Positions 18,612 through 19,793 of a stretch of 64,000 nt of DNA are shown in pieces (the stretch's first letter is position 1; the number at the start of each line of letters is the position of its first letter). Made by a program: the position numbers and the translations under genes. The stretch spans positions 434,001 through 498,000 of the forward strand of contig NC_014374.1 of the NCBI RefSeq assembly GCF_000144915.1, given 5' to 3'. Origin of the DNA: Acidilobus saccharovorans 345-15. Its GTDB lineage: Archaea; Thermoproteota; Thermoprotei_A; Sulfolobales; Acidilobaceae. Under the pieces are notes generated by a model. The model did no database searches, was not told the DNA's origin, and saw only the letters and a list, made by a program, of their open reading frames with translations.

Positions 18612-19238
18612 TTAGAACTCGACGTTCGCGTGTCTGCTCCTCATCTCATCCTCGCTCACGTTAAGCTTTATCATGAGGTAGTAGACGACGCCGTCAAGGA
18701 ACAGCATGGCCGTGTCCTCAAATAGCGTGCCCAGAGGGGCCAAGGGCTCGTGAAGTCCAAGTATCTGCCTCGCAAAGTAGTCATCCATCTTGCTTATCTT
18801 GGACCTCCCAGGTATCCTGACGACCAGGTCAGCTATGCTCCCTAGTGGGCTCTCCGGAAAAGTGGTTATTGCTATTACATAGGCGCCCACCTTCTTGGCG
18901 GCGTCAGCGGCGTCAACTATTAGGCCAGTTCTGCCGGAGCCTGAGATTGCTATGGCAACGTCGCCCTTGGATATGCTGGGCACTATGGTCTCGCCGAGCA
19001 CGTATGAGTTAAAGCCGAGGTGGAGGAGCCTCATGGCAAAGGCCTTGCCTACAAGGCCGCTGCGGCCGGCGCCCATCACTAAAGCTTTGCCTTTCCTGCG
19101 GTAGACGTCGGTCAACATGTCGACCATCTTGTCGACCTCACTGACATCTATTACTTCAGCAGCTCTAATCGCGAACTCGGAGATCTCCTTCATAGCCTTT
19201 ATGGCAGGGTGCTCGGAGCTCAAATGTAGCCCTCTCAA
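18612..19238 (-). CDS. hxlB: 6-phospho-3-hexuloisomerase
   Basis: The 208-residue product is a SIS-domain sugar isomerase: [17 protein letters not shown] (about 56-72) and AISGSGRTG (about 98-106) form the sugar-phosphate site, and the C-terminal [13 protein letters not shown] is typical of the MJ1247 family. It interconverts arabino-hex-3-ulose 6-phosphate and fructose 6-phosphate in the reverse ribulose-monophosphate pathway, which supplies ribulose 5-phosphate for nucleotides in archaea. The hexulose-phosphate synthase partner is not in the window. The TTG start at 19238 is uncertain; TTG 19223 has a better GAGAGGG site upstream. Confidence 0.9.
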
Positions 19239-19341
19239 ACAAGAGTACCCCTAACTTTAAGTTTTTCATGAAAATGTTAAGCTGCAGTCCAGCGATTCTG
19301 CCGTTAAGTAAAGCAACCTAGAATTTCTAAAAAATAAAATA

Positions 19342-19351
19342 TTTTACTTTA
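19342..19351 (+). promoter_or_regulatory. TATA-like element for the H/ACA-like RNA
   Basis: An AT-rich block (19325-19352) ends with TTTTACTTTA. Initiation about 25 nt downstream would fall near 19372-19376, about 20 nt before the basal stem of the RNA at 19393. Confidence 0.45.
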
Positions 19352-19389
19352 GCGGAAGTGTTTTCACCCCTGAAGTTCCATAGGTCTAC

Positions 19390-19470
19390 GTGGCCCCGCC
19401 GGTCTCACGTTGCCTGAGATCCCATAAGGGAGATGAAGATGATGGGCAAACGGTTAGGCGGGGCACACGC
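19390..19470 (+). ncRNA. H/ACA-type pseudouridylation guide sRNA (candidate)
   Basis: The plus strand folds as a single archaeal H/ACA hairpin. The basal stem is GCCCCGCC (19393-19400) with GGCGGGGC (19457-19464), followed at once by ACA (19465-19467). The internal pocket has a 5' arm at 19401-19409 and a 3' arm at 19450-19456. The upper stem is TTGCC (19410-19414) with GGCAA (19445-19449). Above it lie CTGA and GATGA/GATGATG boxes able to form a k-turn, and a TCCC-ATAA-GGGA tip. The distance from upper stem to ACA is 15 nt, as the family requires. The pocket arms GTCTCAC and CGGT pair with the conserved 23S sequence ACCG-UC-GUGAGAC, leaving exactly two bases (U-N) unpaired. The 23S sequence is recalled, not in the window. 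The minus strand has no ACA at the right place. A TATA-like block and a TTTTTA tract flank it. Confidence 0.72.
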
Positions 19471-19480
19471 GTTATAATCC

Positions 19481-19490
19481 TTAATTTTTA
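19481..19490 (+). terminator. T-tract after the H/ACA-like RNA
   Basis: TTAATTTTTA at 19481-19490 is a plausible archaeal terminator for the RNA ending near 19470. The TATA-like GTTATAATCC (19471-19480) just before it is also well placed to drive the gene at 19512. Confidence 0.4.
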
Positions 19491-19511: not shown

Positions 19512-19793
19512 ATGGGGACGCTCTTGAAGAAGGACAGGGAAGACTCTCCAGAGCCTCCGAGGGGAGTCATAGAGGTCGAGGGCCTTGCCATGAACGGCCT
19601 CCTGAAGAGCTTCAGCGTTGAGGACTGCGGCAAGCCAAAGGGGTACCAGAGGATAGTGGCAGAGACCATAGATGGCAGGGTAATTAAAACTGGGTGCCTC
19701 GAGCCTGACGCCGCCAGGAGGGAAGTCATGGTAATGAACTTATACCTCAGGCAGTGGAGTAAGTTTATTGTAAGGCAGGACTCAGGCCGGTGA
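19512..19793 (+). CDS. Uncharacterised small protein
   Basis: The 93-residue product starts at ATG 19512, about 36 nt after a TATA-like GTTATAATCC. It shows no signal peptide or membrane helix. The middle (about residues 20-70) looks like a small beta-rich domain with two cysteines (about 39 and 63); the C-terminus is helical. I recognise no family. It could form a unit with the next gene, 35 nt downstream. The codon usage (AGG, GAG, ATA) matches neighbours, which supports coding. Confidence 0.6.
   Translation: MGTLLKKDREDSPEPPRGVIEVEGLAMNGLLKSFSVEDCGKPKGYQRIVAETIDGRVIKTGCLEPDAARREVMVMNLYLRQWSKFIVRQDSGR

Follow-up and report, generated by a model that had tools for sequence, protein, structure and literature searches.

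Does the intergenic DNA at positions 19391 to 19469 of the window (the whole stretch analysed, 64,000 nucleotides from a complete archaeal genome 1,496,453 bases long) encode an RNA of its own and, if so, which uridine does that RNA address? We put a probability of about 0.93 on the reading that its product is a single-hairpin box H/ACA guide directing pseudouridylation of U2593 of 23S rRNA (Escherichia coli numbering), as the crenarchaeal counterpart, and probably a homologue, of the Pyrococcus guide Pab91. No gene overlaps the locus. On one side lies a SIS-domain gene on the opposite strand (18612–19238) and on the other a small open reading frame (ORF) on the same strand (19512–19793), which starts 43 nt downstream. 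The description of the RNA as unannotated in the initial annotation fits the Rfam search of the whole window at the gathering threshold, which returned just one tRNA and a 5S rRNA and nothing at the guide locus.

The locus folds into a single hairpin of the archaeal H/ACA guide type, the parts of which are as follows:

19391–19469, + strand: H/ACA guide RNA gene, its extent given by the span of model R1 and its identification by homologues, covariation and intergenic position
19393–19400, + strand: basal stem, 5′ strand, GCCCCGCC; 97.8% of alignment cells paired in 69 sequences, with a double change in 6 of 8 pairs
19402–19408, + strand: pocket 5′ arm, GUCUCAC; pairs with 23S GUGAGAC (E. coli 2595–2601), with no change in any of the 29 family homologues
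19410–19415, + strand: upper stem, 5′ strand, UUGCCU; compensatory change in 6 of 6 pairs
19416–19417, + strand: kink-turn GA, 5′ side; G26 and A27 invariant in the family alignment
19420–19431, + strand: apical stem UCCC/GGGA with an AUAA tetraloop; compensatory change in 4 of 4 pairs
19432–19443, + strand: kink-turn 3′ side, GAUGAAGAUGAU, with two boxes of the UGA/AUG type; near-invariant AUGAAGAUG in the family, kink-turn assigned by eye
19444–19449, + strand: upper stem, 3′ strand, GGGCAA; covariation
19451–19454, + strand: pocket 3′ arm, CGGU; pairs with 23S ACCG (E. coli 2592 and upstream), with GG invariant and C and U nearly so
19457–19464, + strand: basal stem, 3′ strand, GGCGGGGC; covariation
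19465–19467, + strand: ACA box; both A residues invariant in the family alignment and the middle C nearly so

The basal stem contains 8 bp with no mismatch and is followed directly by ACA. Counted from the U–A pair that closes the upper stem, the spacing to ACA is 15 nt, or 14 nt if G19·A64 is stacked, which places it within the 14–15 nt between the pocket-closing pair and ACA of productive guides (PMC4652768). The upper stem has one extra nucleotide on its 3′ side. The elements of kink-turn type, a 5′ GA and a 3′ UGA with an adjacent AUGAAG, are conserved in the family and were assigned by eye, as was the ‘10-layer’ GA stem, which comes to ten layers only when a bulge, one variable non-canonical position and the G·A pairs are counted. 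The 3′ side of the kink-turn is the expected site of L7Ae binding. The minimum free energy of the fold is −35 kcal/mol, whereas shuffled sequences average −24.3 ± 3.3 (z = −3.3; 1 of 200 shuffles as low). Thus the parts first listed for this hairpin, from the basal stem, adjoining ACA and pocket to the upper stem, k-turn-like boxes, tetraloop and 15-nt spacing, are all found at their coordinates. In most homologues the guide-arm segment GGUCUC (19401–19406) is also complementary to GAGAUC or GAGACC in the part of the RNA that forms the kink-turn and apical stem (19416–19421). This could allow a competing fold in which the pocket is blocked.

By chance alone, a 64-kb sequence holds about one hairpin of this loose geometry, so the structure could in principle be a chance hairpin with a chance complementarity to rRNA. 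When the 64-kb window was scanned for H/ACA geometry, the only hairpin with a perfect basal stem was the guide locus; shuffled windows yielded 1.3 hairpins each at up to 1 mismatch, none of which attained the target score, and arms with permuted letters attained the 23S pairing score in 5 of 3,000 draws. The homologues carry the matter further. At E ≤ 0.1, BLASTN found matches in 33 of the 48 family genomes; about 30 of these matches span the whole hairpin, and most have E values below 1e-8. A covariance model built from 29 family homologues and then searched over the order, class and phylum matched 126 of 197, 141 of 229 and 47 of 349 genomes, respectively. This kind of search on related genomes had been proposed as a check on the hairpin; the stems proved to be conserved in homologues across the family, order and class, and the arms to be nearly invariant in the family.

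Within the 29 homologues, pairing holds in 94% of cells and both partners have changed in 12 of 19 pairs, with a covariation score of 0.264 (0.132 when shuffled; slid controls, ≤0.083). For 69 sequences the corresponding values are 95.8% of cells, double changes in 16 of 18 pairs and a score of 0.454 (shuffled, 0.154 ± 0.009; slid controls, ≤0.111); this larger alignment was fitted to the structure, and the test on 29 homologues is the fairer one. Compensatory change is strong in all three helices and the pocket is almost unchanged: GUCUCAC is unpaired within the RNA, yet identical throughout the family set. Covariation over the two sets, together with conservation across more than 100 genomes, removes the chance explanation, to which we give a negligible probability, and the earlier judgement that such a match is hard to get by chance holds.

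We then asked which uridine the pocket would present to the enzyme. The sequence ACCGUCGUGAGAC occurs once in the 23S rRNA of the same genome, and the two arms pair with ACCG-UC-GUGAGAC there through 7+5 contiguous pairs, leaving exactly U-C open. The layout proposed originally, in which 19402–19408 and 19451–19454 pair with GUGAGAC and ACCG around an unpaired U-C, is therefore exact and has a single site in the 23S rRNA of its own genome. Reading positions 2561–2640 of E. coli rrlB (gene start at 4168641, U at 4171233) assigns the target U to 2593 and the bulged A to 2602, in agreement with the approximate position near A2602 that had been proposed; E. coli itself has AACG where the guide target has ACCG. 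All family genomes in which this site was read have the same target, and these include genomes with an intron-like insertion. Such insertions occur in the 23S genes of G019 (L055/L057) and G022 (L054/L056), directly 5′ of the guide target and after GGGTTCAGA, so that the 3′ exon starts at the recognition sequence.

A guide for the same segment is well described in Pyrococcus. Pab91 targets U2685 of 23S rRNA (2690 in Thermococcus kodakarensis) in the peptidyl transferase centre (PTC) region, both in vivo and in a system reconstituted in vitro (PMC6138745). Both RNAs are single hairpins with an ACA box, and their pocket arms (GUCUCAC/CGGUU in the window, UCUCAC/CGGUC in Pab91) are complementary to the same 23S sequence, so the same uridine should be addressed. 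We infer that U2685 of P. abyssi is the equivalent of E. coli 2593. A numbering offset of about 92, which also fits the other Pyrococcus sites, leads to this position. The unique exact match, the near-invariant arms of the family and the same arms in Pab91 support U2593 as the candidate pseudouridylation site.

An H/ACA guide could also have a different main target, elsewhere in rRNA or in a tRNA or mRNA, with the 23S match being secondary. The arms of some relatives pair poorly with the 23S site, and an archaeal guide may have several targets (PMC4652768). However, when every U of the rRNA operon in the same genome is compared, the 23S target is the best site by a wide margin, the next-best sites reaching 5+5 pairs (off-register) and 4+6 pairs; the arms are invariant in the family, and Pab91, with the same arms, has a proven target in the same region. 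We therefore regard a different main target as improbable.

The position of the RNA next to a downstream gene raises another explanation, in which the hairpin is not a guide but a cis-acting, L7Ae-bound leader or attenuator of the ORF at 19512–19793. The close start of this ORF on the same strand is compatible with such a role, and L7Ae-bound k-turns have been proposed as regulators of archaeal translation (PMC5539422). The neighbours vary, however: the ORF is next to the RNA in the closest relatives only, and the SIS gene is beside it at 18 of 30 loci, in either relative orientation as read from the strands. A leader also has no need of an invariant, unpaired pocket that is complementary to rRNA and followed by ACA. 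These observations make the leader explanation very improbable and favour the guide. The flanking sequences offer two candidate signals for transcription of the guide:

19322–19352, + strand: AT-rich stretch, putative promoter; based on sequence, with weak upstream AT enrichment in homologues
19485–19489, + strand: T5 run, possible terminator; based on sequence

A standalone promoter and T-tract had been suggested around the hairpin. Both the AT-rich stretch and the T5 run are present, but most relatives lack a conserved T-run, and the putative promoter is no more than an AT-rich stretch, with slight AT enrichment across relatives between about −27 and −37.

Support for the H/ACA guide reading comes from geometry, covariation and conservation, and from genes for Cbf5 (with its DKCLD domain) and Nop10 in the same genome. 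The known roles of the archaeal RNP proteins (L7Ae, Cbf5, Nop10 and Gar1; reviewed in PMC7991803) suggest how it would work. L7Ae would bind the kink-turn, and Cbf5, with Nop10 and Gar1, would assemble on the basal stem and ACA, with Nop10 acting as a bridge and Gar1 aiding turnover. The open pocket would capture 23S ACCG-UC-GUGAGAC through both arms. U2593, left unpaired and lying near A2602 at the foot of helix 93, would enter the active site of Cbf5 and be converted to pseudouridine. Transcription, RNP assembly and the modification itself are steps that we infer.

How closely is this RNA related to the guides already described? At a relaxed threshold, the Rfam family of Pab91 (RF02795) matches 8 of 14 distant homologues scanned, in alignments that superpose the basal stem, UCUCAC, the upper stem, CGGUC and ACA; the best match (L225, 43.4 bits, E = 3.7e-6) is below the gathering cut-off of 71 bits. 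The window copy gives no match to RF02795 even at E ≤ 10. We considered the window RNA as a direct Rfam match to Pab91 and rejected this, as only a 7-bit chance match, to a C/D family, was returned. The RNA is not a member of RF02795 as curated, and homology to Pab91 is indicated by way of intermediate sequences. Unlike Pab91, it is crenarchaeal, has a different basal stem sequence and falls below the Rfam cut-off, and it combines a kink-turn that has an extended 3′ box segment with an apical stem-loop, whereas an apical K-loop is reported for Pab91 (PMC3726423).

Guides of Pyrobaculum resemble the window RNA as crenarchaeal pseudouridylation guides with a k-turn and an ANA box, but most of them have no basal stem, whereas the window RNA has a full 8-bp stem, like sR201 and sR202 (PMC4652768). 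Haloarchaeal HP1, which guides Ψ2621 of Haloarcula marismortui, or E. coli 2586 (PMC2584109), likewise serves the PTC segment of 23S rRNA, but its target is a different site, 7 nucleotides upstream. A literature search found nothing relevant on pseudouridine 2593 in archaea or on guides of Acidilobus; homologues in other crenarchaea may already be included in a computational survey of archaeal H/ACA RNAs. The kind of RNA is already known, as Pab91 does the same job in Pyrococcus, and the locus is its unannotated crenarchaeal counterpart. It adds a guide gene with a precise target to a window in which Rfam has no guide, and widens the range of a guide known mainly from Pyrococcus to much of an order and class.

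Outside the family, the arms and their target do not always stay matched. Several related families have CCUCAC as the 5′ arm, giving 5+4 to 5+5 pairs at the 23S site; in two genomes (G115 and G176) it is CCCAC, giving 3+4 to 3+5 pairs with the 23S site unchanged. In a further genome (G166), the arms no longer match and the 23S target is intact. This drift and mismatch imply that the homologues do not all function alike. In family f6, two genomes retain the target, and the covariance model found no guide in them.

Family f11, which is probably Sulfolobaceae, differs at the target itself: in each of the 13 genomes whose site was read, the 23S rRNA has GCGAGAC, with C in place of U at E. coli 2596 (for example, G131 C1:922976-922993). 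The covariance model found no credible copy of the guide in this family and returned two weak matches, in G131 (33.1 bits) and G204 (39.8 bits). We rejected these as copies of the guide, because their arms (UAUCCAUCA and UCAGCAA) have no convincing match to the site, and treat them as other guides. A search of f11 for a compensating guide to GCGAGAC, using the pattern TCTCGC...CGGT...ACA, gave matches at chance level, similar to a reversed-pattern control. The coincidence of guide absence with C2596 is suggestive only, as it possibly reflects a single event in one lineage. We therefore raise only tentatively, as somewhat less probable than its opposite, the idea that guide and target have co-evolved, with loss of the guide accompanying C2596 in f11 and, elsewhere, drift of the arms as the hairpin was retargeted or released. 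If true, this co-evolution would be a natural test of the worth of pseudouridine 2593 beside the PTC at high temperature. The families that have the guide, lack it or carry an altered target provide, along with the covariance model, a natural contrast for studying the role in hyperthermophiles of a single pseudouridine close to the active centre of the ribosome.

The surroundings of the guide gene contain two other RNA signals. In 17 relatives, a second conserved RNA element, absent from the window, lies near the guide gene, either downstream or on the other strand:

L007:1364-1438, L009:1585-1664, L011:1415-1495, L018:1596-1672, L025:1372-1447 and 12 further loci: second RNA element

This element is about 75–85 nt long and has a basal kink-turn, two invariant segments (UAGCC and CGAGCCGG) and compensatory changes in 6 of 12 pairs. 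No Rfam family matched it at E ≤ 0.5 among the loci scanned, and it is possibly an undescribed L7Ae-binding RNA or guide. The other signal, near the guide gene in a genome of the same genus, is a weak match to the C/D box RNA sR1 (L004:1148-1203, − strand; 27.5 bits, E = 0.0032).
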